Shown: piece after piece, positions 1,054 through 23,644 of the stretch
Position numbering within the stretch: position 1 is the first letter of the stretch
How the letters are laid out: the number at the start of each line of letters is the position of its first letter
Assembly: GCA_028290305.1 (NCBI GenBank)
Contig: JAQGKC010000173.1
Location: forward strand, 1-29,095
Source of the DNA: Bradyrhizobium sp.
GTDB lineage: Bacteria; Pseudomonadota; Alphaproteobacteria; Rhizobiales; Xanthobacteraceae
DNA length: 29,095 nucleotides
Direction of reading: 5' to 3'
Program-made: the position numbers and the translations under genes
Notes under the pieces: model-generated
The model's input: only the letters and a program-made list of their open reading frames with translations
Databases searched by the model: none
Told to the model about the DNA's origin: nothing

Positions 1054-1182
1054 GCTTCTACCATCCGCTGACAGAAACGAGCGCGTATCAGCCAGCGCCG
1101 TCTCGGGGACGGCAGGATGGTTCGGACGCTTGGTGCAAGTCAAAAGCCGATTATCGATGGCACTATCGGAAAATCCGATCAA

Positions 1183-4040: not shown

Positions 4041-4053
4041 TGAAGCCTCTCCT

Positions 4054-4872
4054 TTAGGCGTAAAGCCGATCCGTGAATTCAAAGGCGCGGACGATTTCCG
4101 GTGACGTGGTCCTGCAGGGGTCGTCTTGTTCCGGCGGCGGCGCGCGGTGCCTGGTCAACGTGACCGGTCCAGAAGCAGCCGGCCGCGCGGGATCGAGCGG
4201 ATGAGAACAATTCGACAGCACCAGCGCGAGATTCATTTCTGCGCGCAGGTCGACGAAATCGCCCGGCCGTTTCCGCCCCGCACTCCAGAGGAAGCGCCCT
4301 TTTGCATCGAGCGAGACGGGTGCAAAAAATGTGACACACGGTGGTATATCCCTGAGGCCGAGCCCGATCTTGGCCGCAGCCGCCAGGAAATTCTCCTGGG
4401 TATTGCGCGTCGTTGCGCCGAATGCGGAAAGCGTCGAGGCAGGCGTGGAGCCTCCTACCAAAAGGTCATGGGCGCCACTGGTATCCTCGACCAGCGACAG
4501 GAACACGCGTCCCATGTCCGACAGGATGACGCGGCCCTTCGAGATCGCGGCGCTCCATTGGACTTTGACGGTGTCGGCGCAATTGATCCGCTCCGATGGC
4601 TCTTCCTCGCGCCAGCCGATCAGCGAGACGCTGGAGCGACCGGAATCGTCAACGATCCGAAGCGCCTCGCCGCGTCGCAATCGAACCGTTGCGTACCAGC
4701 CGGCAGGGACCTGCTCGCGGCTGATGACTGTCTCCGGCGCGATCGGTGCGCCATCAAGGGCTGTCGCTTCAGGCAGGCCCTTTGGCGTCACTTCCTGTCC
4801 CGCGGCCCGGAGTTCTTCGTAGCGTCGCCGATTGGCCTCGGAAATTTCCTGTTTCGTCTGTGCAGCCATCAT
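4054..4872 (-). CDS. DUF1989 protein, UAAP1 / CgdA-like, metal-site cysteines absent
   Basis: A 272-residue DUF1989 protein resembling urea-amidolyase-associated protein 1. The N-terminal extension (residues 1-50, ISEANRRRYEELRAAGQEV) precedes the domain. Domain marks are RRGEALRIVDDSGRSSVSLIGW, PSERINCADTVKVQW, LSDMGRVFLSLVEDTSGAHD, GDFVDLRAEMNLALVLSNCSHPLDP. Where the CgdB-like neighbour has SCGRHD...CCSC, this copy has TSGAHDLLVGGS, so the putative metal cysteines are missing. That is what one would expect of a partner subunit rather than the catalytic one. It has a longer polar C-terminal tail than the other two. Tandem ATG codons at 4872 and 4869 are preceded by GGAG at good spacing. It overlaps nothing and is the middle of three tandem paralogues. 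The heterodimer role is known for the family; assigning it here is inference. Confidence 0.85.
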   Translation of the reverse strand: MMAAQTKQEISEANRRRYEELRAAGQEVTPKGLPEATALDGAPIAPETVISREQVPAGWYATVRLRRGEALRIVDDSGRSSVSLIGWREEEPSERINCADTVKVQWSAAISKGRVILSDMGRVFLSLVEDTSGAHDLLVGGSTPASTLSAFGATTRNTQENFLAAAAKIGLGLRDIPPCVTFFAPVSLDAKGRFLWSAGRKRPGDFVDLRAEMNLALVLSNCSHPLDPARPAASGPVTLTRHRAPPPEQDDPCRTTSPEIVRAFEFTDRLYA

Positions 4873-4899: not shown

Positions 4900-5502
4900 T
4901 CAACCGACGGTAAAATGCGCCTCGACGGGCTTTCCCGCCTTGCCGTTGATCGGCAGGATATCCTGCGGACACGCGGAAAATGCGATCACCAGATCCATCT
5001 CGGCCCGCAGGCGAACATAGCCTCCAGGCACAGGCCGCGGCGGCGCCGCGAAGCCAAGTGTGCCGTCAGGGGACCAGGGAATATTCATGAACAGATTAAG
5101 AGGGCTTGGCACTTCCGTCGGAGCGAGGCCGAGTTCAGCCATTCCAGCAAAGAGATTATCCGTGCAGTTATCGTGATAGCTCTCCACGCCAAGAAAAGTG
5201 TAGCGGTAGCGGTCGCAGGCTGCGATCAGCGTGTCGTGGATTCCGCCGGAGGTATCTTCGGTCAATGTCAGGATCGGCCGGCGCCTGTTGGTCCGCAGGA
5301 CATCGCCAGGCCTGGGAACCAGATGCAGGCTGTGCGCGCGCGTATGCTCATTCGACATGAATTCGCTGAGGTCTTCGCGGTTGAAAGCCCAGGTATCGAC
5401 CACCTGCTCGCCATGGGTGTTGATGACGGTGACTGTTTGACCGGCTGAAACAAGGGCGGCCTTGCCGCGCCTCGCCGGAATTTCGATTGCGTGATGCGTC
5501 AT
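4900..5502 (-). CDS. DUF1989 protein, stand-alone urea carboxylase-associated type
   Basis: A 200-residue DUF1989 protein, the first of three in transcription order. Marks are IPARRGKAALVSAGQTVTVINTHGEQVVDTWAFN, EFMSNEHTRA, LTEDTSGGIHDTLIAACDRYRY, YHDNCTDNLFAGMAELGL, PSPLNLFMNIPWSPDG and GYVRLRAEMDLVIAFSACPQDILPING. It is distinct from both the CgdA-like and CgdB-like neighbours and keeps a cysteine pattern (AACDRY, NCTDN) of its own. So the three genes are not recent duplicates of each other. ATG 5502-5500 is preceded by GAGG about 8 nt upstream, and the gene starts 9 bp after the RidA stop. This subtype commonly occurs alone near amino-acid or guanidino-compound genes; its reaction is not established as far as I know. 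Confidence 0.85.
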   Translation of the reverse strand: MTHHAIEIPARRGKAALVSAGQTVTVINTHGEQVVDTWAFNREDLSEFMSNEHTRAHSLHLVPRPGDVLRTNRRRPILTLTEDTSGGIHDTLIAACDRYRYTFLGVESYHDNCTDNLFAGMAELGLAPTEVPSPLNLFMNIPWSPDGTLGFAAPPRPVPGGYVRLRAEMDLVIAFSACPQDILPINGKAGKPVEAHFTVG

Positions 5503-5511
5503 GTTAATGCC

Positions 5512-5904
5512 TCACGGTCTGAAGGCGATCATGTCGATCTCGACAATCCCGCCCCGGGCTAGCGCCGTCACGCCCACCGTGGTTCGGGCCGGACGCTTGC
5601 CATCGGAGAAATAGCTCGAGAAGATTTCATTCATCTTCGCGTAGTCGCCGTTGAAGTCGGTCAGGAAAATGCGTACGCAAACGACATTCGCAAATGTAAG
5701 CCCGCACCCTCTGAGCACCCGGGCGAGGTTGTCCATCACCTTGTGCGTCTGGGCCTCGATGCCGGTCGGAATCGGGAGAGAATCGTCATCCGGATCGGTG
5801 GCGAGTTGTCCCGTCACGAAAATGAATGGCCCGGCTTCGACGGCATGGCTGTAGGGCGTGACCGGCTTCGGCGCATCGGGCAAAAGATGAAAGATCGGCT
5901 GCAT
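5512..5904 (-). CDS. RidA family (YjgF/YER057c/UK114) enamine/imine deaminase
   Basis: A 130-residue RidA-family protein. RidA proteins are small trimeric enzymes that hydrolyse reactive enamine/imine intermediates, releasing ammonia. Typical blocks are PYSHAVEAGPFIFVTGQLATDP near residues 16-37, GIEAQTHKVMDNLARVLRGCGLTFANVVCVRIFLTDFNGDYAKMNEIF in the middle, and RPARTTVGVTALARGGIVEIDMIAF at the C terminus, including the conserved Arg (PARTTV) that binds the substrate carboxylate. The start at 5904 (MQPIFHLLPD) gives the normal length. The frame remains open further upstream to 6093, but that would overlap the ABC ATPase gene. It is 22 bp after the ATPase and 9 bp before the first DUF1989 gene. 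Its likely job is clearing an imine formed by one of the operon's deaminating enzymes, which is inference. Confidence 0.92.
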   Translation of the reverse strand: MQPIFHLLPDAPKPVTPYSHAVEAGPFIFVTGQLATDPDDDSLPIPTGIEAQTHKVMDNLARVLRGCGLTFANVVCVRIFLTDFNGDYAKMNEIFSSYFSDGKRPARTTVGVTALARGGIVEIDMIAFRP

Positions 5905-5926: not shown

Positions 5927-6712
5927 TCAGCGCCTGACGGTAGCGGTGTCGCCGGCATAACGCTGGAGAAACTGGCGTGCGCGTTCAGTCTCGGGATTGG
6001 AGAAAAATCGATCCGGCGATCCGGTTTCGACGGCTCGCCCGCGATCGAGAAACAGCACCCGCGTCGCCGCTTCGCGCGCAAATCCCATTTCATGGGTGAC
6101 GATCACCATCGTCATGCCTTCGCGGGCCAGATCCCGCATCACAACCAGTACTTCGCCGACGAGTTCCGGATCGAGTGCGCTGGTGGGTTCGTCGAACAGC
6201 AAAAGATCCGGACGCGTCGCGAGCGCCCGCGCGATGCCGACCCGTTGTTTCTGTCCACCCGACAGCCGCGCCGGAAAGGCATCGCGCTTCTCGCTGAGCC
6301 CGACCTTCGAAAGCAGAGCAAGCGCTTCGTCGCGGACTTCGGCCTTCGGCCGCTTTTGCACCTGGACTGGCGCTTCCATCAGATTTTGTAGCACCGTGAG
6401 GTGGGGCCATAGCGCAAAATGCTGAAATACCATGCCGATGCGCGTTCTGATCCGCGACAGGTCGCGATCGCTCATGACAATGCCGGCGTTATTGATGCCG
6501 ACCCGCTCGCCATTCAGGTAGATTTGCCCGGCGTCAGGCCGCTCGAGCCAATTGATACAGCGCAACAATGTCGACTTGCCCGAGCCCGACGGTCCAAGCA
6601 CGCAGATCGTCTCGCCCTTATCGACCTGGAAGCTGACGTCGGAGAGCACTTCGACATCGCCAAATCGCTTCGACACTCCGGCCACATCGAGAACCTTGTT
6701 GAATTCCGCCAT
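5927..6712 (-). CDS. Polar amino acid-type ABC transporter ATP-binding protein
   Basis: A 261-residue ATPase of the HisP/GlnQ class. It shows Walker A GPSGSGKST near residues 39-47, Q-loop MVFQHFALWPHLTVLQN, signature LSGGQKQRVGIARALA, Walker B LLFDEPTSALDPE and switch His in VIVTHEMGFAREAATRV. It energises the importer formed with the two permeases and binding protein encoded immediately upstream. It begins 9 bp after the second permease gene. The C terminus (ETGSPDRFFSNPETERARQFLQRY) is typical of this class, which transports amino acids, opines and related cationic compounds. The riboswitch upstream suggests that the substrate may be guanidine or a guanidino compound, which would be a different importer type from the NitT/TauT-like systems usually linked to guanidine. 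Confidence 0.95.
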   Translation of the reverse strand: MAEFNKVLDVAGVSKRFGDVEVLSDVSFQVDKGETICVLGPSGSGKSTLLRCINWLERPDAGQIYLNGERVGINNAGIVMSDRDLSRIRTRIGMVFQHFALWPHLTVLQNLMEAPVQVQKRPKAEVRDEALALLSKVGLSEKRDAFPARLSGGQKQRVGIARALATRPDLLLFDEPTSALDPELVGEVLVVMRDLAREGMTMVIVTHEMGFAREAATRVLFLDRGRAVETGSPDRFFSNPETERARQFLQRYAGDTATVRR

Positions 6713-6721: not shown

Positions 6722-7378
6722 CTATCGACGCGCTTCGGCGACGCGGCCGATCGAACTCACCCCGGCCTCGATCACGAGACAGAGGCCCCAATACAGAAAC
6801 ACGGCCGTGATGAAGGCCGCGAATGGAACGTAATGCCGCGACTGGATGGAACTCGCAGCATGCGTGAGTTCCGGAATCGCGATAATGGTCAGGAAGGCGC
6901 TGTCCTTGATGATCTGAATCATCTGATTACCGATCACGGGGCCCGCCGATAGCAGCAGCGGCGGCAGAATGATGCGGCGAAACAGCTTAATCTCCGAAAA
7001 GCCGAAGGCGATGCCGGCCTCGATCGGTTCGCGCGGCTGCACAACCCAGGCGCCGCGCAGAATCTCCGCCATATAAGCGGCATTGTAGATGATCAGCGCT
7101 GCAAGCCCCGAGGTCCAGTTGTCCAGCCTGACGCCGAGTGATGGGAGGCCGTAATAAACGATATAGGCGAACAGCAGAAACGGGACACATCGCATACCAT
7201 CGACAAATGTTCGTGCGGCGCCGGAAACAGCCTGATGTTTCGACATCAGTGCCGGCGTCAGGATGAACCCCAGTAAAAGCGCCGCAATGGCTGATAGCGC
7301 CGATAATATCGTGGTATTGGCGAGCCCGCTCAGAAGCAGCGCGCGTTCGCTCCAGACGATGCCGAAGTCATGGATCAT
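6722..7378 (-). CDS. Polar amino acid-type ABC transporter permease
   Basis: A 218-residue inner-membrane permease of the HisM/GlnP class with about five predicted membrane spans. The hydrophobic runs start near residues 12, 50, 75, 90 and 185. The ATPase-coupling EAA loop is visible as EILRGAWVVQPREPIEAGIAFGFSEIKLFRRIILPPLL. The start codon overlaps the end of the preceding permease gene by 4 nt (positions 7375-7378), a sign of translational coupling. The two permeases are divergent in sequence, so the importer is probably a heterodimer in the membrane. The C terminus (FLYWGLCLVIEAGVSSIGRVAEARR) is normal. Confidence 0.93.
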   Translation of the reverse strand: MIHDFGIVWSERALLLSGLANTTILSALSAIAALLLGFILTPALMSKHQAVSGAARTFVDGMRCVPFLLFAYIVYYGLPSLGVRLDNWTSGLAALIIYNAAYMAEILRGAWVVQPREPIEAGIAFGFSEIKLFRRIILPPLLLSAGPVIGNQMIQIIKDSAFLTIIAIPELTHAASSIQSRHYVPFAAFITAVFLYWGLCLVIEAGVSSIGRVAEARR

Positions 7379-8022
7379 GCGGCAACCTCGGCCGCGACCT
7401 GGCGCCGTTCGATCCAGCGCTGCAGCGACACCAGCGCAAAGACGATCGGCGCGTAGAGCGCCACCGCCACCAGAAATGGCGGCAGCGGCTCGTAGGTTTG
7501 GGCGCCGATCCTTACCGCGGCGCGCGTGATGTCGACGACGCCTACGACCGCGAGGACCGGCGTGACCTTGATGAGCAATGACATTTCATTGACCAGACCG
7601 GGAAGGCTGACGCGCACGATCTGCGGCAAAACGATCCTGCGAAAGCGTTGCCCGGCGCGCATACCGACCGACTGCGCTGCCTCGTATTGGTCCTTTGGAA
7701 AATTCACCAGCGCGGACCGCCAAACCTCACAGTTGAAGGCCGAAGTGTTCATGACCAGCGCGAGGATCGCCGCCGAGATCGGATTGATCGGCACTCCGAT
7801 ATTGGGAAGGGCGAAAAACAGCAGCAATAAAAGCGTGACCAGCGGCGTCGCCCGCAGCACGCTGACGTAAAGCGTCACGATGCGGGCAACGACTGGAATA
7901 TTGGCCCAGCGGAGCAGCGCGAGACCAAGTCCGATCGGCAGCCCGATCAGGATGCCGATAACTGACAGCGTTACCGTCACTATGGCACCCTGAAAGATGG
8001 CTGCGATGTCGCCGCCGCTCAT
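7375..8022 (-). CDS. Polar amino acid-type ABC transporter permease
   Basis: A 215-residue permease of the same class as its downstream partner. The start region carries membrane segments (AIVTVTLSVIGILIGLPIGLGLALL). The conserved EAA loop appears as CEVWRSALVNFPKDQYEAAQSVGMRAGQRFRRIVLPQIVRVSLPGLVNEM. The gene begins 27 bp after the binding-protein stop and overlaps the next permease start by 4 nt. With the binding protein and ATPase it makes a complete four-gene importer. The substrate cannot be read from the sequence. Confidence 0.93.
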   Translation of the reverse strand: MSGGDIAAIFQGAIVTVTLSVIGILIGLPIGLGLALLRWANIPVVARIVTLYVSVLRATPLVTLLLLLFFALPNIGVPINPISAAILALVMNTSAFNCEVWRSALVNFPKDQYEAAQSVGMRAGQRFRRIVLPQIVRVSLPGLVNEMSLLIKVTPVLAVVGVVDITRAAVRIGAQTYEPLPPFLVAVALYAPIVFALVSLQRWIERRQVAAEVAA

Positions 8023-8049
8023 GACAGACCGGTTCCGGCAAACCGGCCG

Positions 8050-8907
8050 TTAGAATTCCGGCTCAAACGTCACCGGCAGATTCGGAAACGCCTCGCCAAA
8101 CCATTTCTTTTGCAGTTCGGCGAACCTGCCGCTCGCCTTCTCCTTGGCGATGAACTCATTCAAGAAGGCAAGCAACTCCGTATTGCCCTTTGCAACGGCC
8201 CAGGCGGGGAACGATTTTCCGGAGACCGCCTGACCGACTTCGAACACGGCCGGTTTTTCGGCCACAAGCGTCTGCAGGTTGATGACGGTGTTGACGACGT
8301 AATCGACACGGCCAAGCGCCAGATCCTGATAGGCTTCGGGATAGGACGTGTATTCGACGACCTTGCCGAGCTTGCCGCCATCCTTCTCCAGCATGGCCCC
8401 GAGTTCAGGAAGACGGGCGAGCAGCGCGCTGCCGGCCTGGACCCCGACGGTCTTTCCGCTCAAATCCTTGATCGAGGAAATGGACTTGTCGTCCTTTCGC
8501 TTTACATAATAATGCGTCGCGTCGGCGATCGGGCTTGTGAAATCAAGCGATTGCTTGCGTTCCTTTGTAATGATCGCAGCGGTGATGGCGACATCATACT
8601 TGCCCGTGCTGACACCGGCCAGAATGCCGGTCCACGGCAGGATCTCCTGTTTGATCTCGAACGGCGCGTATTTGCGGAGGTCTTCGATCAACTCGTTATC
8701 GAAGCCTGTCGGCTTGCCATCCTTGACGAATTCGAACGGGCGGAAATCGTCCTCCGTCGCAACGATGAGACCGCGCTTCTTGATTTCATCGAGGCTGGCG
8801 GCCTTTGCATTTCCGAGCAGCATCGGCGTGGCAAACAACGCTGCCAGCAGGCCAAGCGTCAGGCGTCGCGACAGGGAATTGGGCTGGGCGAACGAATATT
8901 GTGTCAT
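8050..8907 (-). CDS. Periplasmic substrate-binding protein, family 3, of the polar amino acid-type ABC importer
   Basis: A 285-residue binding protein. The start is placed at ATG 8907-8905 because GGAGGAAG lies at ideal distance upstream; the frame is open further to 8952 without such a site. A Sec signal peptide is clear: basic SLSRRLTLGL, then a hydrophobic core, then AKA-ASLDEI near residue 37. The mature part follows the SBP_bac_3 pattern (LDEIKKRGLIVATEDDFRPFEFVKDGKPTGFDNELIEDL, GKYDVAITAAIITKERKQSLDFTSPI, DLSGKTVGVQAGS, LGRVDYVVN). It should capture the importer's substrate in the periplasm. In this family an Arg plus an Asp normally hold an amino-acid carboxylate and amine. The block corresponding to the usual Arg reads TKERKQSLDF, so the ligand may be amino-acid-like or a guanidino acid rather than free guanidine. 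That is inference. It is 81 bp downstream of the nitroreductase gene. Confidence 0.93.
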   Translation of the reverse strand: MTQYSFAQPNSLSRRLTLGLLAALFATPMLLGNAKAASLDEIKKRGLIVATEDDFRPFEFVKDGKPTGFDNELIEDLRKYAPFEIKQEILPWTGILAGVSTGKYDVAITAAIITKERKQSLDFTSPIADATHYYVKRKDDKSISSIKDLSGKTVGVQAGSALLARLPELGAMLEKDGGKLGKVVEYTSYPEAYQDLALGRVDYVVNTVINLQTLVAEKPAVFEVGQAVSGKSFPAWAVAKGNTELLAFLNEFIAKEKASGRFAELQKKWFGEAFPNLPVTFEPEF

Positions 8908-8988
8908 AATGAATCTTCCTCCGTTGGGGTGATGGCATGTCGTGGCCTGCAAAGAAGATGGTGACGTGTCGCGCTTGCGTGGTCCTTT

Positions 8989-9822
8989 TCAATCGAAGCT
9001 GAATCCGTGTGAACGCAGATAAGGTGAGAATGCCGCACCTTCGGCCTTGGCCGCCTGCCGCGCCTTGTCTTCCGACCAGCCATAAAACGCCGCGTCGCCG
9101 AACTCCGCGTTGGAACGCTGCTGCTCCCTGGGAATGGCGTGCAGCGCATCGCGACGGCGGTCGTAATCGTCGATGGCTTGGGGAAGCGCGCTATCGTCGT
9201 ATCGATCGCGGTGCGTCGTCGCGAGACGCGGCAAGCGCAAGCTGACGTGGCCCTCGGCCTGCGGATAGCCGAGGCAAAGTCCTGCGACCGGAAAAACCAG
9301 ATCGGGCAATCCGAGAATTTCCGCGACCTTGTCGATCTCATTGCGAATGACGCTGATGGGACAGACACCGAGCCCTGCGGATTCCGCGCACAGGATCATG
9401 GTCTGCATGGCCAGGGCGGCATCAACGCTGGCGTTGAAAAAACCCTCCAGCGTACCGTTGCGAACGGGCTTTCCACGCAACTCACCGATACGTTGCAGTC
9501 GCCTCGCGTCTCCGAGAAAAACGAAGAACGCTGGCGAAAGCCCGATCCAGGGCATGCTCGGGAACAATTTGCCGATCGCAGCGCGCTGCGTTGGATCGTC
9601 GACCCGCAAAATCGATGCCTGCTGGAAATCCGACTTGGCCGAAGTGCTCAGGGCCGCGGCGACGAGCAGATCCAGCAGGTCATCGCTCGGAACAGCATCG
9701 CTGTAACGGCGCACGGTCTTCCGCGAGATAACCCGGCGGATAAAATCGTTGTCGGCAACGCCCTCGCCGGATGGGCCGCCATCGCCAAAGCGCCGCTCGA
9801 TTACGTCTGCATAGGCCGACAT
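8989..9822 (-). CDS. Nitroreductase family FMN-dependent oxidoreductase
   Basis: A 277-residue nitroreductase-fold flavoprotein. FMN-binding signatures are seen: ISRKTVRRYSDAVPSDDLLDLLVAAALSTSAKSDFQ near residues 31-66, AALAMQTMILCAESAGLGVCPIS in the middle and PVAGLCLGYP after it. It has the longer C-terminal tail of the NfsA/Frp-like branch, so it is not the short RutE type. It is the first large gene after the guanidine riboswitch. Its ATG (9822-9820) overlaps the stop codon of a possible 29-codon leader ORF as TGATG, and no strong ribosome binding site of its own is visible. NAD(P)H-dependent reduction of a nitro, N-oxide or quinone-like substrate is the family activity. A role on an oxidised guanidino compound is an untested idea from context. 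Confidence 0.9.
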   Translation of the reverse strand: MSAYADVIERRFGDGGPSGEGVADNDFIRRVISRKTVRRYSDAVPSDDLLDLLVAAALSTSAKSDFQQASILRVDDPTQRAAIGKLFPSMPWIGLSPAFFVFLGDARRLQRIGELRGKPVRNGTLEGFFNASVDAALAMQTMILCAESAGLGVCPISVIRNEIDKVAEILGLPDLVFPVAGLCLGYPQAEGHVSLRLPRLATTHRDRYDDSALPQAIDDYDRRRDALHAIPREQQRSNAEFGDAAFYGWSEDKARQAAKAEGAAFSPYLRSHGFSFD

Positions 9823-9911
9823 CAGTTCGAACCCCGGCTAGGTCCGCGGATCGAGGGCTTAATCGTCGCGTAGACAATCAGGGTAAGCGTTCGGAAATTC
9901 GAGACGTCCAT
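9822..9911 (-). CDS. Possible 29-residue leader peptide between riboswitch and nitroreductase
   Basis: A short frame (MDVSNFRTLTLIVYATIKPS then IRGPSRGSN) starts at ATG 9911-9909 and is preceded by GTGGAG at about 7 nt. Its TGA stop (9824-9822) overlaps the nitroreductase ATG as TGATG. The peptide has a short hydrophobic stretch (LTLIVYATI) and no recognised domain. Its position downstream of the aptamer with a good ribosome binding site suggests that it could couple riboswitch-controlled initiation to translation of the nitroreductase. It could equally be a chance frame. Confidence 0.35.
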   Translation of the reverse strand: MDVSNFRTLTLIVYATIKPSIRGPSRGSN

Positions 9912-9941
9912 CGCCAACTCCACTCAAGGTTCATAACCCCT

Positions 9942-9974
9942 GGAATTGGCATAGACCTGAGCGACGCCAATTCC
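9942..9974 (-). promoter_or_regulatory. Hairpin following the riboswitch aptamer (candidate expression platform)
   Basis: On the minus strand GGAATTGGC (9974-9966) pairs perfectly with GCCAATTCC (9950-9942) around a 15-nt loop. Beyond an A-A mismatch the CC/GG flank would compete with the 3' strand of aptamer helix P1 (TAGCCA, 9980-9975). AGGTCT in the loop can alternatively pair with AGACCT at the aptamer's 3' end. No U-tract follows, so an intrinsic terminator is not evident. Control of translation or of Rho access is more likely. Confidence 0.5.
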
Positions 9975-10083
9975 TGGCTACTGAGGTCTCCCGGGATTTT
10001 ATCCCGCCGTGCCCTGTGCAGATTTCTCCTGCTCAGGCGGCAGCTCTTGGACCAGCCATCAAACGGATGCGGAACCCTAGCCA
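9975..10083 (-). promoter_or_regulatory. Guanidine-I (ykkC-type) riboswitch aptamer
   Basis: Read on the minus strand, the leader contains the hallmark ykkC blocks in order: CTAGGGTTCCG (10080-10070), CTGGTCCAAGAG just after it, and ACGGCGGGATAAAATCCCGG then GAGACC (about 10010-9985). Closing helix P1 is visible as TGGCTA (10083-10078) with TAGCCA (9980-9975). This RNA class binds free guanidinium and turns on genes for guanidine export or degradation. The aptamer begins about 11 nt after the predicted sigma-54 start point. Two positions differ from the consensus I recall: A for G in CUGGUCCGAGAG, and U for G in AUAAAAGCCCGGG. Related ykkC subtypes bind ppGpp or PRPP, but the downstream DUF1989 and importer genes favour guanidine. 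Confidence 0.9.
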
Positions 10084-10104
10084 CCAACTCAATGACAAAG
10101 TTGG

Positions 10105-10121
10105 AGCAAGGGACATGCCAG
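10105..10121 (-). promoter_or_regulatory. Sigma-54 (RpoN) promoter of the guanidine-riboswitch operon
   Basis: On the minus strand CTGGCATGTCCCTTGCT (10121-10105) matches YTGGCACG-N4-TTGCW with a single change. The invariant GG (10119, 10118) and GC (10107, 10106) have the exact -24/-12 spacing. Transcription should start near 10094, just ahead of the guanidine aptamer. Sigma-54 use implies activation by an enhancer-binding protein such as NtrC under nitrogen limitation. No such activator gene is present in the window. Confidence 0.75.
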
Positions 10122-10387: not shown

Positions 10388-10873
10388 TCAATCGGGAACC
10401 GCCGCGGCTTCCTCTCGATGAGAGCTTGCCGTCACAATCTTCTGCATCATGACAATCAATCGCTTTTGGTCTGCCTTACTCAGATCGGCCACCGTCTCAC
10501 GGTGAGCGGCGCGTGCCGACGCTTCCATTTGCCGGACCAATGTCGCGCCGGCCTTTGTCAGCCGGCACATCTGTGCCCGGCGATCCCGGTGATGGATGGA
10601 GCGCTCGATAAAGTTACGTGATTGCAAGCGCTTAAGTGCACCGGTCGTCGTTGTGCGGTCGAGCGCGACGTCTGCCGCTAAAGTGGTCTGATCGGCATTT
10701 CCGCGCTCCGCCAAGGCGGAGAGAAGGCTATACTGCAGTGGCGTAACCGCAAAAGCAGCGCATTTCTTCTGAAAAAGCGCGACGTGAATTTGATGCAGCC
10801 GCCGGATCAGAAATCCCGGCCGTTGTTCGAGCGGCCAGGAATTGCCGCTCTTTTGCACTGGTTTCTTCGCCAT
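10388..10873 (-). CDS. MarR family transcriptional regulator
   Basis: A 161-residue MarR-family winged-helix dimer. After a short basic N terminus (MAKKPVQKSGNSW) come the dimerisation helix (PGFLIRRLHQIHVALFQKKCAAFAVTPLQYSLLSAL), the recognition segment (QTTLAADVALDRTTTTGALKRLQSRNFIER) and the wing (HHRDRRAQMCRLTKAG), then the C-terminal helices. The start at 10873 gives a compact protein; an in-frame ATG at 10918 would add 15 residues. It is divergent from the amidohydrolase/molybdenum hydroxylase operon. Matching palindromes sit on both sides of the gene (10266-10283 and 10948-10967), so it probably regulates its own transcription and the neighbouring operon. A small aromatic or heterocyclic ligand is usual for the family; which one is unknown. 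Confidence 0.92.
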   Translation of the reverse strand: MAKKPVQKSGNSWPLEQRPGFLIRRLHQIHVALFQKKCAAFAVTPLQYSLLSALAERGNADQTTLAADVALDRTTTTGALKRLQSRNFIERSIHHRDRRAQMCRLTKAGATLVRQMEASARAAHRETVADLSKADQKRLIVMMQKIVTASSHREEAAAVPD

Positions 10874-10922
10874 CTTCGACCACTCTGTCCTTGTCCGTGC
10901 TGCATGAATTTGTTGCAATCCA

Positions 10923-11027: not shown

Positions 11028-12305
11028 ATGTCTGTAAGCCCCACATTTGACCTGCTTCTGCGCGGGGGTCGTGTCATAGATCCGGCGGCAGGCATCGACG
11101 GCATCAAAGACGTCGCCATTCGCAACAACAAGATCGCCGCCGTTCAGTCCGATATTTTGCCGACGAGCGCCCGAGAGGTCCTGGACGTTACGGGAAAGAT
11201 CGTTCTCCCCGGACTGATCGACACCCATGCGCATGTCTATCAATATGTGACAGGCCGCTTCGGCATGAACGCCGACATGGTGGGCGTCCAATCCGGGGTT
11301 ACGACCCTGGTCGATCAGGGCGGACCTTCCTGCATGACCTTGCCGGGCTTCCGGCATTTCATTGCCGAGAAAGCGCAGTCGCGGACGTATGCATTTCTGT
11401 CGGCGTATCTCGTGGGTGGTTTGGAAGGTCATTATTACCCCAATCTTTATAGCCCGGACTGCGTCGATATCGATGCCACCGTGAAAGCGGCGACCGCCAA
11501 TCATGATCTGGTGCGCGGCATCAAGGCTCATGCCGAAATCGGCGGCTTCGCACGCTGGGGCATTCGCGTCATCGAGATGGCCGCCGAGATCGGACGTCGC
11601 GCGGGCCTTCCGGTCTATGTGCATTTCGGACAACTCTGGGGTTTGCCGGAAAGCGGCACCAACGGTGAAGACGTCGATACGATTCTGGAACGGGTGATCC
11701 CGGTGCTTCGTTCCGGCGATGTGCTGGCTCATCCGTTCACGCGGCATCCCGGCGGCTTCGTCAATCGTGAAGGCGAAGTACACCCGGTGATCCAGGCGGC
11801 GCTCGACCGCGGACTGCGGATCGATGTCGGCCATGGCAGCCACTTCTCGTATCGTCTCGCGCGCAAGGCGATTGCCGCCGGTATTATTCCGACCACGCTG
11901 GGAGCAGATATCCACGGTTACAACACCCACGTGCCGGCGCCTGCTGGAACGCCGGACGAGCATGTCGATGACGAAAATCATCCCTTCGCAAGTCAGGCGA
12001 AATTCAGCCTGGTGCAGGCGATGAGTTCGATGATGGCACTGGGTCTTACCCTGGAGCAGGTAGTGCCGATGGTGACTTCGCGTCCAGCCGAGATGTTGGG
12101 GCTTTCGGATACCATCGGCACGTTGCGGCCCGGCATGGATGCCGACGTCTCCGTGCTCACGGAGAAGCCCGGCCGTTACGTTCTGCGTGACAACGAAAAG
12201 ACGGAAGTGGTCGCGGATAGTCTGTTGCAGCCGGTATTTTGCTTGCGTGCAGGCGTGCGCCATGATGCCGTCGCTCCCATCCTGCCACGGGCGGTGGCCG
12301 CTTAA
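11028..12305 (+). CDS. Amidohydrolase/deacetylase family metallohydrolase (dihydroorotase-like)
   Basis: A 425-residue amidohydrolase-superfamily enzyme of the group annotated as amidohydrolase/deacetylase metallohydrolases. The metal motif is HAHVYQY (GLIDTHAHV near residue 67). GIKAHAEIGG supplies the lysine expected to be carboxylated and bridge two metals. HFGQLWG and AHPFTRHPGGF give further histidines, and GHGSHFSYRLARKA and LGADIHGYN contain the catalytic region. The family hydrolyses cyclic amides, N-acyl groups or related bonds, and several members are promiscuous. AGGAGAGGAG lies 7-16 nt before the ATG. It is the first gene of the operon and is followed 34 bp later by the molybdenum hydroxylase. 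This fits ring opening of the hydroxylated heterocycle, which is inference. Confidence 0.87.
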   Translation: MSVSPTFDLLLRGGRVIDPAAGIDGIKDVAIRNNKIAAVQSDILPTSAREVLDVTGKIVLPGLIDTHAHVYQYVTGRFGMNADMVGVQSGVTTLVDQGGPSCMTLPGFRHFIAEKAQSRTYAFLSAYLVGGLEGHYYPNLYSPDCVDIDATVKAATANHDLVRGIKAHAEIGGFARWGIRVIEMAAEIGRRAGLPVYVHFGQLWGLPESGTNGEDVDTILERVIPVLRSGDVLAHPFTRHPGGFVNREGEVHPVIQAALDRGLRIDVGHGSHFSYRLARKAIAAGIIPTTLGADIHGYNTHVPAPAGTPDEHVDDENHPFASQAKFSLVQAMSSMMALGLTLEQVVPMVTSRPAEMLGLSDTIGTLRPGMDADVSVLTEKPGRYVLRDNEKTEVVADSLLQPVFCLRAGVRHDAVAPILPRAVAA

Positions 12306-12339
12306 CCGCGCACGGCAGATTCATAGGGACACGGCGTTA

Positions 12340-14727
12340 ATGTCTCACGTTGAAAGCGATCGTCCTGCGGGTGCGGCGGCCGGCTCCGGACAAGGGGTCG
12401 GAGCGCGGCTGCTGCGCAAGGAAGACGATCGCTTGATGCGCGGACGCGGCCAGTATGTGGCCGATATCCGTCTCGCAGGCCTGCAAGACGTCGCCTTCGT
12501 CCGCAGCCCGCTGGCGCATGCCCGGATAAGGGCCATCCATGTGCCGGAGCGTTATCGTGACGTCGTGTTTACGGCCGCCGATCTGACCGGGGTCAAGCCG
12601 ATCCGTGCCGTATCCGGCCTGCCCGGCTTCAAGATATCGGAGCAACCTGTCCTCGCGACTGGCAAGGTGCGCCACGTCGGAGAACTCGTCGCCATGTGCG
12701 TGGCGCCGACGCGGGCGGAAGCCGAAGATATCGCGGCCTCGGTGACGCTGGACCTCGAAGAACTGCCGGCCGTCTACGATATGCTCAAGGCGCGTGACGA
12801 AGAGACAGCCCTCGTCCATGAGCATTGGGGCGACAATGTCTTTCTCGAAAGCGCCTTCGAGGTCGATATCACGCCGGCATTCGATGCGCCCATCAAGGTG
12901 ACGCGCGAAATCTCGACCGCGCGTCAATGCATGTCCCCTCTCGAGGGGCGCGGTGTCGTCGCCACCTTCGATCACCGCCTCGACCAGCTTACGCTTTATA
13001 CCGGCGCTCAGATGCCGCATATCGTTCGCAACGGGCTGTCCGATTGTCTGGGTATGGAGCAGGGTCAAATCCGGATCGTATCCCCTGATATCGGTGGAGG
13101 ATTTGGTCACAAGGGAATTTTGCTGCCGGAAGAGGTCTGCCTCTCCTGGCTTGCGATGCACAAAGGCTACACTGTGCGCTGGATCGAAGACCGGCGCGAG
13201 CATCTGACGGCGAGCGCCAATTGCCGCGAGCACTACTACAAGATCACCGTCTATGCCGATCGCGATGGCCGATTGCGCGGGATCGACTGCGAGGCGACCG
13301 TCGATTCCGGGGCCTACTCGTCGTATCCTTTTTCCGCCTGTCTTGAGGCCGCACAGGTCGCGAGCATCCTGCCGGGGCCCTACAAAATGCCGGCGTATCG
13401 CTGCCGAACCTTCTCGGTCGCGACCAATAAATGTCCGATCCTGCCCTATCGCGGCGTGGCCCGCACCGGCGTCTGCTTTGCGCTGGAAATCATGCTGGAT
13501 GCCGTCGCGGTCGTAGCCGGGATCGAACCCGGCGAGGTTCGGCTGCGCAATCTGATAGATTTGAACGACATGCCGTTCGACAACATCACCAAAAAGCATT
13601 TCGACAGCGGCGACTATCCGCAAGCCATGCAGCGCGCGCTTGCCGCGATCGATGTCGCGGCGGTGCGGACCCGTCAACACACCCAGGAACCGGATGGACG
13701 GCTGATCGGTGTCGGCCTCTCGATCTATTGCGAGCAGGCCGCGCACGGCACCTCGGTGTATGCCGGCTGGGGCATTCCCATGGTGCCCGGACACGAGCAG
13801 GCCAATGCGCGCATGACGCCGGACGGCGGGCTCGAAATCCGCGTCGGTGTGCATTCGCACGGCCAGGGGCTCGAGACCACGCTAGCTCAAGTCGCCTACG
13901 AAATTCTCGGGATCGATACGGCGAAGGTACGTGTCGTGCATGGCGATACCGCGCTCACTCCCTATTCAACGGGCACCTGGGGTTCGCGTTCAATGGTGAT
14001 GGCCGGCGGCGCGGTGGCAACCGCTTGCATCGAGATCGGCGAACGCGCGAAACATATCGGCGCCAAACTTCTTCAACTTGATCCGGCGATGGTTAGCTTG
14101 CGCGATGGCCGTGTGTGTGGACCAACCAGCAGCATCGGTCTCTCGGAAATCGCACACACCTGGCATCGGCGTCCGCAGGATCTGCCGCCTGATGTCAATC
14201 CGGGAGGGCTGGAGTCAACCAGCGGCTACAAGCCGCAGCGCGACAGCGGCACCTTCAGTTATGCGGCTCACGCCGTTACCGTCGCGGTCGATCCGGATCT
14301 CGGCGAGGTCGAAATCCTCGACTACGTCATTGTCGAGGACGGCGGCGTGCTGGTTAACCCAATGATCGTTGACGGCCAGATTTTTGGCGGTCTTGCGCAA
14401 GGCATTGGCACGGCCCTCTACGAGGAAATGCCGTTCGACGCCGCCGGACAACCGCTCGCGACGACGCTTGCCGACTATTTGCTGCCGGGTCCGACGGAAG
14501 TACCCGAGCCTCGTCTCGATCATATGGAAACGCCCTCGCCTTACACGATGTTCGGCGTCAAGGGCATCGGAGAGGGCGGCGCCATCGCTCCGCCAGCTGC
14601 CATCGCCAACGCTGTAAACGACGCGCTGCGCCCGCTTGGGGTTGAATTGCTGCATTCGCCGATTTCGCCGCGCCGGATCGTCGAGGCTGTTCTGGCGGCA
14701 CGTGAAGCGGAAAGATCGGCCGCATGA
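12340..14727 (+). CDS. Molybdenum hydroxylase large subunit (xanthine dehydrogenase/CoxL family)
   Basis: A 795-residue molybdopterin-binding large subunit of the xanthine oxidase family. These enzymes hydroxylate N-heterocycles or aldehydes using water. Visible marks are GVGARLLRKEDDRLMRGRGQYVAD at the N terminus, IGGGFGHKG at residues 251-259, PYRGVARTG at 369-377, GQGLETTLAQVAYEILGI, the dense Mo-cofactor block around GTWGSRSMVMAGGA, and the catalytic glutamate in GIGEGG (E745). The residue block at 369-377 resembles AYRGAGR of form II enzymes and lacks the Cys of true CO dehydrogenase (AYxCSFR), so CO is not the substrate. The frame is open back to 12139, but ATG 12340 (MSHVESDRPAG) has AGGGA upstream and follows the previous gene. 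Its stop overlaps the next start as ATGA. Confidence 0.93.
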   Translation: MSHVESDRPAGAAAGSGQGVGARLLRKEDDRLMRGRGQYVADIRLAGLQDVAFVRSPLAHARIRAIHVPERYRDVVFTAADLTGVKPIRAVSGLPGFKISEQPVLATGKVRHVGELVAMCVAPTRAEAEDIAASVTLDLEELPAVYDMLKARDEETALVHEHWGDNVFLESAFEVDITPAFDAPIKVTREISTARQCMSPLEGRGVVATFDHRLDQLTLYTGAQMPHIVRNGLSDCLGMEQGQIRIVSPDIGGGFGHKGILLPEEVCLSWLAMHKGYTVRWIEDRREHLTASANCREHYYKITVYADRDGRLRGIDCEATVDSGAYSSYPFSACLEAAQVASILPGPYKMPAYRCRTFSVATNKCPILPYRGVARTGVCFALEIMLDAVAVVAGIEPGEVRLRNLIDLNDMPFDNITKKHFDSGDYPQAMQRALAAIDVAAVRTRQHTQEPDGRLIGVGLSIYCEQAAHGTSVYAGWGIPMVPGHEQANARMTPDGGLEIRVGVHSHGQGLETTLAQVAYEILGIDTAKVRVVHGDTALTPYSTGTWGSRSMVMAGGAVATACIEIGERAKHIGAKLLQLDPAMVSLRDGRVCGPTSSIGLSEIAHTWHRRPQDLPPDVNPGGLESTSGYKPQRDSGTFSYAAHAVTVAVDPDLGEVEILDYVIVEDGGVLVNPMIVDGQIFGGLAQGIGTALYEEMPFDAAGQPLATTLADYLLPGPTEVPEPRLDHMETPSPYTMFGVKGIGEGGAIAPPAAIANAVNDALRPLGVELLHSPISPRRIVEAVLAAREAERSAA

Positions 14728-15560
14728 AAGCGGCCGCGTTCGCCTACCAACGTCCCGCCGATGTGAATGCTGCGCTGGCCTTGATGGCTGGTACGGACGG
14801 CGTCACCAAGATAATCGCCGGAGGGCAATCACTCGGCCCGATGCTCAACCTGCGGCTGGTCGAGCCGGACCTGATCATCGATATCGCAGGGCTTTCTGAA
14901 CTGAAGCAGGCAGAACGCAGCGGCGATGAACTCATCATCGGGGCCTGCGTCACCCATGGCGACATTGAAGACGGGCGAATACCGGATGTAACCCGTGGCG
15001 CCATGCAGCGCGTTGCGGGCGCCATCGCCTACAGGGCCGTTCGCAATCGCGGCACGATCGGCGGCTCGCTCAGTCACGCCGATCCCGCTGCGGACTGGGT
15101 GTCGGCGCTGTCGGCGCTGGGGGCAAAGGTCACGCTGCGCAGTCTTGCAGGGAATCGTCATCTTGCGATCGAGGATTTTGTCACCGGCGCGCTCGAATCC
15201 GCACTCCGGACCGACGAGATCGTCGAGGCCGTGCGCGTGCCGGTCATGACGGCGTCGGCAAAATGGGGATACGCCAAAGCCTGCCGCAAGACGGGAGAAT
15301 TTGCCCACGCGATTGCCGCGGTGCTGATCGACCCGGAATCGGCGACGGCACGCGCAGTGATTGGTGCTGTCGAAGCAACTCCGATCGTTCTTGGCGACGC
15401 CACGGCGCTTTTCGGCGGGCGAGTTACAGGTGACTTCAAACGGCAATTCGACCCACGCGCAGCCGACGCAATCCTGATGAAAGCGGGCATAGCCAACGCA
15501 GCCGACCGGAACATTCATGTCGCGGTGCTTCGCCGGGCGATCAACGAGGCTGTCGCGTGA
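14724..15560 (+). CDS. Molybdenum hydroxylase FAD-binding medium subunit (CoxM/CutM-like)
   Basis: A 278-residue FAD-binding subunit. The two flavin motifs are intact: AGGQSLGPMLNLRLVEPDLIIDI near residues 35-57 and RNRGTIGGSLSHADPAADW near residues 108-126. The C-terminal CODH-C type domain follows (KTGEFAHAIAAVLIDP onward). The start ATG overlaps the large-subunit stop by 4 nt, and its stop overlaps the small-subunit GTG start, so the three subunits are translationally coupled. It passes electrons from the iron-sulfur subunit to NAD+ or another acceptor. The gene order large-medium-small differs from the medium-small-large order of classic cox genes. Confidence 0.94.
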   Translation: MKAAAFAYQRPADVNAALALMAGTDGVTKIIAGGQSLGPMLNLRLVEPDLIIDIAGLSELKQAERSGDELIIGACVTHGDIEDGRIPDVTRGAMQRVAGAIAYRAVRNRGTIGGSLSHADPAADWVSALSALGAKVTLRSLAGNRHLAIEDFVTGALESALRTDEIVEAVRVPVMTASAKWGYAKACRKTGEFAHAIAAVLIDPESATARAVIGAVEATPIVLGDATALFGGRVTGDFKRQFDPRAADAILMKAGIANAADRNIHVAVLRRAINEAVA

Positions 15561-16747
15561 CCACAGTCGCACTCACTGTGAACGCGCGCGCCGTCAGTGC
15601 TTCGGTGGAACCGCGCACCCATCTCGCTGATTTTTTGCGCGACGGTCTCAATCTGACCGGCACCCATCTCGGTTGCGAGCACGGCGTATGCGGGGCATGC
15701 ACGTTGCTGCTTGACGATATGCCGGCGCGTTCCTGCATTACTTACGCGGTCGCCTGCGATGGAGCACGAATAACCACGATCGAGGGACTCGATGATGATG
15801 AAATCACCACCGAGCTTCGCGCGGCCTTTACGCGCGAACATGCCCTGCAATGCGGATATTGCACGCCGGGGATGCTGATCTCGGCGCGCGACCTCGTGCT
15901 TCGCCTGCCAGAGGCTGACGAACGTAGTATTCGCATCGGATTGAGCGGCAATCTCTGCCGCTGCACCGGATATGTCGGTATCGTGCGGGCGGTGCGTTCC
16001 GTGATCGACCAAAGGCGCCAGCGGGAGGTGAAGCCGGTTCCCGGCGGAGGTCGCACGACTCTCGGTCCTGTGGGGTCCGGCAATGGCACGAGTGCTTCCA
16101 CTTTGAATGCTGAAACGCCGGCCGCGAAAGAAGTGCGATACGAAGACAACGGCGCGACGGCGGTCCCGGACTTCACGCCCGAGAAGGTTTTTACGGATCA
16201 TTTTACTGTCGCCTATCCGCCCGACCGGGTCTTCGGCATGCTAGGCGATGTCGCACAGGTCGCCGCCTGCCTTCCCGGCGCATCGCTGACCGGCGTGCCG
16301 ACGCCGGAACGCGTGGAAGGCATGATCCGCGTAAATCTCGGTCCGATTTCAGCAAATTTTCGAGGGGCCGCGCGTATCGAGCGCGACTTTGAAAATTTAT
16401 CTGGCCGGATCATCGGAATCGGCAACGATCAGCGCAGCCGGTCTTCCACACAGGGCGAGATCCGCTATCGCCTCTTACCAACAGAACAAGGCGCGGCAAC
16501 GCGCGTCGAGCTCTCGATCGGTTACAGCCTCAGGGGGATACTGGCGCAGATCGCACGCGAAGGATTGGTACGCGATCTGGCCGCCCGGCTGACTGCCGAC
16601 TTTGCGCGCAACCTCGATCGCCATCTTTCAGGCGCCGCGCCAGACGGATCGGCGGAGACATCGCAAAACCTGAATGGTGTTTCTTTGCTGATTGGCCTTT
16701 TGCGCACGCGTGCGCAGAAAGTCCTTCAACGCGTCTTTCGCCGATAA
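15557..16747 (+). CDS. Molybdenum hydroxylase 2Fe-2S small subunit fused to a CoxG-like SRPBCC domain
   Basis: A 396-residue fusion. Residues 1-155 are a complete two-cluster iron-sulfur subunit: plant-type cluster Cys 40, 45, 48 and 60 (GCEHGVCGACT), then Cys 99, 102, 134 and 136 (CGYCTPGM and NLCRCTGY). Residues 156-205 form a Pro/Gly/Thr-rich linker. Residues about 208-355 form a CoxG/SRPBCC domain (FTVAYPPDRVFGMLGDVAQVAACLPGAS, LGPISANFRGAARIERDF, RVELSIGYSLRGILAQIAREGLVRDLAARLTADFARNL). The C-terminal tail (GVSLLIGLLRTRAQKVLQRVF) looks amphipathic. CoxG proteins are thought to anchor or help mature the hydroxylase at the membrane. Start is GTG at 15557, overlapping the previous stop. Ordinary small subunits are about 160 residues, so the fusion is a real gain. 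Confidence 0.93.
   Translation: MTTVALTVNARAVSASVEPRTHLADFLRDGLNLTGTHLGCEHGVCGACTLLLDDMPARSCITYAVACDGARITTIEGLDDDEITTELRAAFTREHALQCGYCTPGMLISARDLVLRLPEADERSIRIGLSGNLCRCTGYVGIVRAVRSVIDQRRQREVKPVPGGGRTTLGPVGSGNGTSASTLNAETPAAKEVRYEDNGATAVPDFTPEKVFTDHFTVAYPPDRVFGMLGDVAQVAACLPGASLTGVPTPERVEGMIRVNLGPISANFRGAARIERDFENLSGRIIGIGNDQRSRSSTQGEIRYRLLPTEQGAATRVELSIGYSLRGILAQIAREGLVRDLAARLTADFARNLDRHLSGAAPDGSAETSQNLNGVSLLIGLLRTRAQKVLQRVFRR
16701..16716. repeat. 16-bp perfect palindrome upstream of the permease sigma-54 promoter
   Basis: TGCGCACGCGTGCGCA is a perfect palindrome inside the last codons of the small-subunit fusion gene. It lies about 70-85 bp upstream of the predicted start point at 16786, where an enhancer-binding protein would bind. 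It has the outer TGC/GCA form of NtrC sites but not their full consensus, and coding constraint may explain it. Confidence 0.3.
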
Positions 16748-18235: not shown

Positions 18236-18241
18236 TCCACG

Positions 18242-18278
18242 ATGGCGCGCGGTGAAAATCGTGCGCCATGGAATTTTT
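18242..18278 (+). terminator. Intrinsic terminator after the NCS1 permease
   Basis: A 12-bp stem (18242-18253 with 18258-18269, including two G-U pairs) closes a GAAA tetraloop and is followed by GGAATTTTT. It begins 7 bp after the permease stop. It should limit read-through into the downstream liv genes. Confidence 0.8.
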
Positions 18279-18351
18279 GACCGATAGCAGGGGTTTGTGA
18301 GGGAGGGCGCGGTCGTGCCACGAATTGCTGCAAATCCAAAAAAGGGACGCG

Positions 18352-19515: not shown

Positions 19516-19522
19516 TCCCTTC

Positions 19523-20389: not shown

Positions 20390-20390
20390 G

Positions 20391-22805: not shown

Positions 22806-22820
22806 ATCCGCCCGGCCTCT

Positions 22821-23594: not shown

Positions 23595-23644
23595 ACCATT
23601 TGGTCCAAAAAAATGCCGGAAAAGGCCGATGATTGCATAAGCCA

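Follow-up and report, generated by a model that had tools for sequence, protein, structure and literature searches.

A guanidine-I riboswitch operon of Bradyrhizobium with a CgdA/CgdB-type protein pair and no guanidine carboxylase gene

We analyzed a 29,095-nucleotide stretch of Bradyrhizobium sp. DNA (assembly GCA_028290305.1, contig JAQGKC010000173.1; the whole stretch is called the window below), the minus strand of which carries a predicted guanidine-I riboswitch followed by an operon that starts with a nitroreductase gene and includes three genes for DUF1989 proteins. A sequence-only reading of this DNA had placed the riboswitch at 9975-10094 of the minus strand and had named a covariance-model search as one way to check it. 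That search, run with cmscan, matched the full Guanidine-I model (RF00442, model positions 1-107) at 9986-10091 on the minus strand with 75.5 bits against a gathering score of 63 (E 5.8e-12), so that the assignment was upheld and its limits were off by no more than 11 bases. It was the sole Rfam match above cut-off within the window; a scan at permissive thresholds yielded, besides the riboswitch, just one sub-threshold small RNA match close by, and a tRNA scan of the window found none. We conclude that the window aptamer is a genuine predicted guanidine-I riboswitch. The features of the operon, in the direction of transcription, are as follows.

10105..10120, minus strand: sigma54 (-24/-12) type promoter TGGCATGTCCCTTGCT, 29 nucleotides before the aptamer, matching the pattern TGGCAYRNNNNTTGCW
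9986..10091, minus strand: guanidine-I aptamer (RF00442, 75.5 bits)
9966-9974, minus strand: GGAATTGGC, a possible competitor for one hairpin strand by duplex energy
9914..9950, minus strand: conserved hairpin GCCAATTCC...GGAGTTGGC (RNAalifold consensus of 9 leaders)
9822..9911, minus strand: leader open reading frame (ORF) of 29 codons, its stop overlapping the nitroreductase start (TGATG); present in 9/9 class C leaders (classes are defined below)
8989..9822, minus strand: nitroreductase (NTR), NfsA/NfrA-like (PF00881; PDB relatives NfrA and NfsA; NfsA model under cut-off)
8050..8952, minus strand: substrate-binding protein of a polar-amino-acid-type importer (PF00497, SBP_bac_3; no NCBIfam model above cut-off)
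7375..8022, minus strand: importer permease 1 (PF00528, BPD_transp_1)
6722..7378, minus strand: importer permease 2 (PF00528, BPD_transp_1)
5927..6712, minus strand: importer ATPase (PF00005)
5512..5904, minus strand: RidA, imine/enamine deaminase family (PF01042; TIGR00004 above cut-off), with RPARTTVGV in its translation
4900..5502, minus strand: third DUF1989 protein (DUFa), of non-UAAP1/UAAP2 type (PF09347; under both UAAP cut-offs; nearest PDB entry 3oru)
4054..4872, minus strand: UAAP1, a CgdA-type subunit (CgdA*; TIGR03425, 251.8 bits against a cut-off of 205.95)
3390..4082, minus strand: UAAP2, a CgdB-type metal-binding subunit (CgdB*) with A122C (TIGR03424, 305.4 bits against a cut-off of 284.7)
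2089..3357, minus strand: CodA-like amidohydrolase (PF07969), in a window-specific operon tail
1183..2076, minus strand: LysR regulator (PF00126, PF03466), in the same window-specific tail
1..1182, minus strand: HyuA-type hydantoinase/oxoprolinase subunit (PF05378, PF01968), cut by the window end

Pfam and NCBIfam confirmed the gene order given earlier (nitroreductase, importer, RidA, three DUF1989 proteins, CodA-like protein, LysR, HyuA). Two of the three DUF1989 proteins matched UAAP1 and UAAP2 above the curated cut-offs, and we take UAAP1 and UAAP2 to be the carboxyguanidine deiminase subunits CgdA and CgdB; the window-type pair is written CgdAB* below. CgdA and CgdB have been defined as two clades of PF09347 (PMC11410670). 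In the accounts consulted, the pathway to which they belong leads from guanidine over carboxyguanidine and allophanate to ammonia, with a carboxylase as its first step and CgdAB as the second enzyme (PMC12186494, PMC12508155). The DUF1989 proteins had been read as the sign of a different pathway, and for two of them this did not hold up, since they match the core of the carboxylase route. What had been said of the carboxylase did: no guanidine carboxylase was found among the scanned window proteins. Pfam likewise gave no match to an arginase-family guanidinase (PF00491) or a 2-oxoglutarate/Fe(II) dioxygenase among these proteins, and no allophanate hydrolase in the window operon. The surprise is thus the presence of CgdA and CgdB without a carboxylase.

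The same arrangement recurs in other genomes. A nitroreductase-based scan of genome contigs kept 80 loci, in which the closest NTR relatives were Bradyrhizobium proteins with up to 90% identity. In five of these loci (L001-L004 and L007) the riboswitch, NTR, importer genes, RidA, DUFa, UAAP1 and UAAP2 were ordered as in the window. The genes were also present in L008-L010 (Bradyrhizobium) and, except for DUFa, in L011 (Reyranella), with no riboswitch above cut-off there; none was found in L013 (Raskinella), where the search was by pattern only. NTR relatives with less than 60% identity (L017-L080) lay mostly outside this operon, next to neighbours that recurred in groups and differed among groups.

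We then searched 265 genomes of the genus Bradyrhizobium for the riboswitch, with filters that lose some weak matches. This gave 73 places, spread over 67 genomes, and in 52 genomes the match exceeded the cut-off. All 73 regions were sorted by their neighbour genes. Class A (29 loci) has an importer, UAAP1, UAAP2 and guanidine carboxylase. Class B/other (17 loci) includes 14 loci with an arginase-family guanidinase gene, two that are cut by contig ends (L129 and L172) and one that precedes an OprB-like porin (L165). Class C (8 loci, L141-L148, in 8/265 genomes) has the same array as the window: sigma54-like promoter, riboswitch, short leader ORF, nitroreductase, polar-amino-acid importer, RidA and three DUF1989 genes, with the aptamer directly upstream of the operon in 8/8. 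Class D (19 loci) scored only 47-58 bits, below cut-off. Loci L012, L014, L015 and L016 of the first scan were kept out of class C, being cut off or otherwise arranged. The window operon therefore belongs to a conserved class. Its aptamer has a 3' core, CACGGCGGGAUAAAAUCCCGGGAGA, near that of the guanidine operons of classes A and B; the differences are minor, G to U at AAAAUCCC being one of them. Class C aptamers differ from those of classes A and B in scoring lower (71-83 bits versus 85-97), in a G to A change after CUGGUCC in 8 of 9 members, and in being coupled to a leader ORF.

The separation of class C from the carboxylase was complete in the stretches fetched: the carboxylase adjoins CgdAB in 62/62 canonical loci, whereas it does so in 0/17 class C-type loci (L141-L148, L198-L200, L203, L204, L008, L011, L013 and the window). 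Among the 37 riboswitch loci with UAAP1, 29 had the carboxylase directly behind UAAP2 and the other 8 were class C. Outside the genus it stood behind UAAP2 in 33/33 loci (L208-L240), which comprised all 14 class-level matches besides G001 and 19 of the 42 family-level UAAP1 matches. UAAP1 itself occurred in 44/265 genomes, of window type in 14 (72-86% identity), of canonical type in 29 (54-58%), and as a 126-residue remnant in G110 (69%); the 29 canonical-UAAP1 genomes are the same 29 as the class A genomes. The carboxylase model TIGR02712 was above cut-off in 29/265 genomes, namely 28 class A genomes and G096; in the remaining class A genome, G238, the carboxylase appeared as two separate matches and fell outside the above-cut-off listing. 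No class C genome (0/8) had a TIGR02712 match above cut-off.

One way to reconcile the operon with the known pathway would be that the ordinary carboxylase route operates here, the carboxylase gene lying at another site of the window's genome. CgdA and CgdB are above their cut-offs, and an allophanate hydrolase was above cut-off elsewhere in the genome in 7/8 class C relatives; this enzyme was found in 18/19 genomes overall, however, and is hence not discriminating. A full-length carboxylase was present in 0/8 of the riboswitch-bearing relatives, which also led us to reject a carboxylase just left of the window as a general explanation. Only one of the 14 CgdAB* genomes, G096, had a carboxylase above cut-off. 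It is 52% identical to the guanidine carboxylase query, has no UAAP match within the 19 kb fetched, and carries a urea-type N where three aligned guanidine carboxylases have D, by a residue rule taken from the methods of PMC11410670; we therefore rejected it as a counter-example. Since CgdAB* also forms a distinct clade with changes beside a zinc cysteine (below), we regard a carboxylase elsewhere in the genome as very unlikely. A split enzyme, in which a separate biotin carboxylase and KipI/KipA-like proteins make carboxyguanidine, finds some footing in clusters of such genes in G009, G010, G053 and G076. None was among the matches listed for G001-G004 and G051, and one occurs in the class A genome G134 as well. 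On these matches we rejected the split carboxylase as a general substitute and give it next to no credence. The core of the sequence-only reading, a guanidino route other than the carboxylase route, thus gained support from the 0/8 relatives with a carboxylase, for a reason different from the one first given.

We asked how the CgdAB* pair relates to its canonical counterpart by building a tree in which 17 class C-type pairs were set beside 42 linked to a carboxylase; the latter came from 9 of the 29 class A loci and from 33 others, and neither DUFa nor the G110 remnant was included. A clade (100/100) was obtained for the class C members of UAAP1 and likewise for those of UAAP2. Both clades lay inside starred groups (97/98 and 100/98) that contain 29 carboxylase-linked rows, and their stems measured 0.53 for UAAP1 and 0.27 for UAAP2. 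Their exact sister group was not starred, and the program flagged long branches at L221. Because the class C clades nest within the carboxylase-linked tree on long stems, we think that the pair was probably separated from the carboxylase a single time and diverged thereafter.

The divergence extends to the predicted metal site of UAAP2. Residues C123, C142, C206 and H140 are invariant in the 17 class C-type and 42 carboxylase-linked rows; three of them, C123, C142 and C206, correspond by motif and by eye to the three zinc cysteines of trimethylamine N-oxide demethylase (Tdm), the zinc ligands of which were taken from PMC12560246. Tdm shares the DUF1989 fold and differs in being a single chain fused to a GcvT domain and in catalyzing another reaction. 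Position 122, the sequence neighbour of C123, is C in 17/17 class C-type proteins versus A in 42/42 carboxylase-linked ones (A122C), and T65A, T129A and H134E are found in 17/17 versus the original residue in 41/42. CgdB* thus keeps the metal-site residues of CgdB but without the conserved surroundings of that site. A His to Cys change in UAAP1 that had appeared in a small first alignment was discarded when it failed to hold in the full set.

Another reading would have CgdAB* as no more than leftovers of a lost canonical operon, with the riboswitch sensing guanidine just for the nitroreductase and importer, and a truncated UAAP1 beside UAAP2 in G110 does show that decay occurs. The ratio of nonsynonymous to synonymous substitutions (dN/dS), determined for 7 of the 9 core genes with nine pairs each, had means of 0.12 for UAAP1 and 0.07 for UAAP2, while the other tested genes gave 0.07-0.12. 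With values like those of the other genes, UAAP1 and UAAP2 are under purifying selection. Their frames are open, with no internal stops, in 14 genomes, and their operon position is fixed, also outside the genus. An origin as mere leftovers is accordingly, in our judgment, highly improbable.

Natural losses of the riboswitch and of CgdAB* gave a further view of their function. A close NTR orthologue (78-90% identity) was present in 16/265 genomes, and a distant one (48-50%) in two. The 16 comprised the eight class C genomes, six with UAAP1/2 but no riboswitch there, and two without both. In the six (G008, G009, G010, G095, G096 and G226), which form one clade (100/100), the riboswitch was absent at the NTR operon and all had a class B riboswitch locus; in G008 a contig end interrupts this locus ahead of the guanidinase position, and no guanidinase is shown in the G008 assembly. 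The two genomes without both, G005 and G006, each own a class A operon with carboxylase. They are not sisters in a tree of five concatenated operon proteins, and therefore two separate loss events are needed. The leaders of both hold an aptamer with its middle deleted (by eye), and G006 also retains the sequestor hairpin and leader ORF. Upstream of the nitroreductase in L201 and L202 we noted, again by eye, what deletion has left of the guanidine-I aptamer; the sigma54-type site has remained in place there.

Fisher's test gave p 0.008 for UAAP1/2 versus guanidine carboxylase and p 0.0014 for the riboswitch versus another catabolic guanidine operon (G008 counted as an owner), both on related genomes with few events. 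Six guanidinase genomes with NTR keep CgdAB* (G009, G010, G051, G095, G096 and G226). Set against the losses in G005 and G006, their retention suggests that CgdAB* can be replaced by canonical CgdAB and is not replaced by guanidinase, so that the substrate of CgdAB* would be nearer to carboxyguanidine than to guanidine. The riboswitch, in turn, seems to be lost when guanidine levels are held down by another operon, with G051 as an exception. As a side observation, G110 holds a remnant of the class C pair (L241, ~7300-8400), in which UAAP2 is an open frame (86% identity) beside the truncated UAAP1.

These data also bear on the possibility that CgdAB* is a direct guanidine hydrolase, converting guanidine to urea and ammonia as a third bacterial route besides carboxylation and nickel guanidinase, with the riboswitch controlling guanidine degradation. 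That 7/8 class C riboswitch genomes lack another guanidine-I catabolic operon (the association tested above) would fit such an enzyme, as would the UAAP2 changes beside the zinc cysteine and the decay of the pair in the guanidinase genome G110. A close guanidinase match occurred in only 1/8 class C genomes (G051); G053 and G076 had arginase-family matches of just 33-37%, and G001-G004 and G007 had no guanidinase match. Yet six genomes with a close guanidinase retain CgdAB* while the two with canonical CgdAB and guanidine carboxylase do not, the importer type differs from that of the class A and B operons, and NTR, RidA and DUFa would be left without a role. We consider direct hydrolysis unlikely.

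Upstream of the aptamer, two sites in the window matched TGGCAYRNNNNTTGCW, which we take to be the sigma54 promoter consensus, against 0.02 expected (0.15 by a cruder shuffle). A sigma54-like site stood 29-30 nucleotides before the aptamer in 9/9 class C leaders. Such a site lay within 120 nucleotides of the aptamer in 16/16 class B leaders (L125-L132, L134, L136, L138, L166, L172, L179, L192 and L194), 28-29 nucleotides before it in four, but in 0/29 class A and 0/19 class D leaders; a guanidinase gene was seen in 14 of the 16 class B loci. All 9 loci examined that lack the riboswitch likewise had the site ahead of NTR.

The leader between aptamer and nitroreductase was conserved in its layout. 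A short leader ORF, which like the sigma54-like promoter had gone unnoticed in the sequence-only reading, was present in 9/9 class C leaders. It is 28-43 codons long and weakly conserved in sequence, whereas its Shine-Dalgarno sequence, GGAGTTGG, is invariant. The ORF's stop shares one base with the NTR start in 7/9; in L142 the ORF ends one base before, and in L148 the overlap is 10 bases. In the RNAalifold consensus of the 9 leaders GCCAATTCC pairs with the Shine-Dalgarno sequence of the leader ORF, and it can alternatively pair with the upstream GGAATTGGC, both duplexes having an energy of -13.3. Covariation at the hairpin was near nil because the alignment columns hardly vary. A predicted translational switch by exchange of the GCCAATTCC pairings is plausible.

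The genes on the other side of the promoter recur with the operon, and with them we list the second sigma54-type site.

10388..10918, minus strand: MarR regulator (PF01047), upstream of the riboswitch in 10/10 Bradyrhizobium loci L001-L010
10923..10938, plus strand: second sigma54-type site, before the divergent amidohydrolase; in 3/10 loci examined (window, L001 and L002)
11028..12305, plus strand: divergent cyclic amidohydrolase (AHyd1; NF006689, 429.6 against a cut-off of 371), in L001-L007, L009 and L010 (L008 is cut)
12139..16747, plus strand: divergent molybdenum hydroxylase of three subunits, CoxL (PF02738/PF20256), CoxM (PF00941) and CoxS fused to CoxG (PF01799/PF06240), in 8/10 of L001-L010

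Eight loci (L001-L004, L006, L007, L009 and L010) had MarR together with the divergent amidohydrolase and molybdenum hydroxylase, at 59-93% identity to those of the window. The recurrent Bradyrhizobium set is thus molybdenum hydroxylase, cyclic amidohydrolase, nitroreductase, importer, RidA and DUF1989 proteins. The CodA, LysR and HyuA genes, which had been counted as evidence for the pathway, do not belong to it: among the loci examined, they were found on the same strand behind UAAP2 in the window only. A 30% LysR stands behind UAAP2 on the opposite strand in L013, and L145 and L147 have 34-35% CodA-like genes at a distance of ~11 kb past the riboswitch.

Taken together, the findings can be read as an uncoupling of CgdAB from guanidine carboxylase and its recruitment to another guanidino pathway under guanidine-I control, a reading that in our estimate stands an even chance. 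CgdAB* probably works on a guanidine compound that arises by a route other than carboxylation. In the scheme we propose, a sigma54-type promoter would start transcription under nitrogen limitation, and the riboswitch would act on translation, a hairpin hiding the Shine-Dalgarno sequence of the leader ORF that is coupled to the nitroreductase start. The importer would take up a guanidino compound, which nitroreductase, RidA and DUFa, perhaps with the molybdenum hydroxylase and cyclic amidohydrolase, would convert to an N-acyl- or N-carboxy-guanidine. CgdAB* would strip ammonia from this product with no ATP-dependent carboxylation beforehand, and free guanidine, leaked or co-released, would be the inducer. 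A guanidine-bearing N-heterocycle is suggested as the compound because the molybdenum hydroxylase and cyclic amidohydrolase recur beside nitroreductase, RidA and DUF1989 proteins. Reduced 2-nitroimidazoles yield guanidine and glyoxal, and a substrate of the 2-aminoimidazole or 2-nitroimidazole type would explain why nitroreductase, molybdenum hydroxylase, cyclic amidohydrolase and RidA occur side by side. More tentatively, then, we suggest a further route, independent of both carboxylase and guanidinase, in which a CgdAB with a remodelled zinc site acts on acyl- or carboxy-guanidine from the reduction, oxidation and ring opening of such a heterocycle, the released guanidine being sensed under nitrogen limitation.

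The first gene and the importer could instead point to hydroxyguanidine, derived from canavanine, as both substrate and signal: canavanine-type import would be followed by deimination by CgdAB*, with NTR reducing the N-hydroxy product or making guanidine from hydroxyguanidine. In its favour, a reporter with a guanidine-I riboswitch is described as responding to hydroxyguanidine (PMC10018355), and a polar-amino-acid-type importer and a nitroreductase as first gene would suit it. There was no pyridoxal phosphate-dependent lyase among the scanned window genes, however, and a nitroreductase with such activity was not met in the literature, among the matches listed. We think the hydroxyguanidine route distinctly doubtful.

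Several points weigh against an uncoupled CgdAB* pathway as we propose it. What CgdAB* acts on and which reaction it performs, where the guanidine comes from and how the switch operates are what we infer. UAAP1 showed no strictly fixed difference between the two groups, and the UAAP2 zinc cysteines were assigned by motif from Tdm, at the level of sequence only. The loss pattern amounts to two genomes and one clade, since of the six guanidinase genomes with CgdAB* five group together; in G051 a guanidinase operon coexists with the riboswitch-bearing NTR operon; and G110, a guanidinase-class genome without a close NTR, has a decayed pair, so that the presence of guanidinase can accompany decay. 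The G007 assembly is 3.8 Mb, and completeness was not reported for the relatives, which bears on the absence of the carboxylase. The divergently transcribed genes may belong to a pathway of their own: L005 has MarR and the amidohydrolase and no molybdenum hydroxylase, Reyranella L011 has a 45% amidohydrolase only, and Raskinella L013 has neither divergent gene. Searches with the substrate-binding protein returned general amino-acid binders only, and no specific characterised relative was found for the importer or the nitroreductase. In the window fold the sequestor hairpin persisted even with the aptamer pairs enforced, and free folds of the 9 leaders gave the sequestor in 4, an alternative hairpin in 2, aptamer pairing in 1 and mixed structures in 2.

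Set beside known guanidine operons, that of the window shares a guanidine-I switch, an ATP-binding cassette (ABC) importer and a CgdA/CgdB pair with the gca-cgdAB-atzF operon. It differs in having no carboxylase or allophanate hydrolase, in its polar-amino-acid-type importer, in the additional NTR, RidA and DUF1989 genes, and in the sigma54-like site, which is found in 0/29 class A leaders. With the GdmH guanidinase operon (class B) it has in common the sigma54-like site ahead of a guanidine-I aptamer, but the enzyme there is of the arginase family, none of which is among the scanned window proteins. The Vreelandella mgdH/mgdL methylguanidine operon, as outlined in PMC12508155, is likewise a guanidine-riboswitch operon extended to process a substituted guanidine ahead of CgdAB; it keeps gca and atzF and uses a 2-oxoglutarate dioxygenase and a lyase, whereas the window has nitroreductase and RidA and no carboxylase. 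In the literature, a carboxylase-free CgdAB operon was not described among the papers listed, of which titles and abstract openings were covered, and an earlier account may exist in work on guanidine or canavanine use.

Since there is a conserved, selected clade in which no carboxylase was found, CgdAB alone is no proof of the carboxylase pathway in genome surveys, and DUF1989 deiminases may act on other substrates. The origin of guanidine in bacteria is described as an open question (PMC12186494). The CgdAB* pathway is a candidate source, because it is riboswitch-controlled without an enzyme known to consume guanidine. The operon is compact, and the Bradyrhizobium in which it is conserved can be cultured, so that its substrate and reaction are directly accessible to test.

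Several further observations were made along the way. Downstream of the molybdenum hydroxylase, at 16817-24943 on the plus strand, the window encodes an NCS1-type permease, a branched-chain-type ABC importer and a second amidohydrolase; the permease and the first genes of the importer recur in L001 and L002. The betaproteobacterial bin L012 has the amidohydrolase and molybdenum hydroxylase at 62-65%, farther off, and in L016 (Hyphomicrobiales) the NTR gene adjoins a molybdenum hydroxylase in a different arrangement.

The class D loci (L149-L164 and L195-L197) carry a uniform guanidine-I-like RNA with an altered core, L153 having CACCCGAGGGACAAAAGCCCAGAGGAG instead of CACGGCGGGAUAAAAGCCCGGGAGA. 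The first gene of L153, the only one scanned, encodes an EamA-family transporter, and the other Rfam match there was just at chance level. This RNA may be a ykkC variant for another ligand. In G051 two divergent guanidine-I riboswitches, L165 and L138, lie ~300 bases apart, one of 98.1 bits before the OprB-like porin and the other before an importer-guanidinase operon; the porin of L165 is possibly an outer-membrane porin for guanidine.

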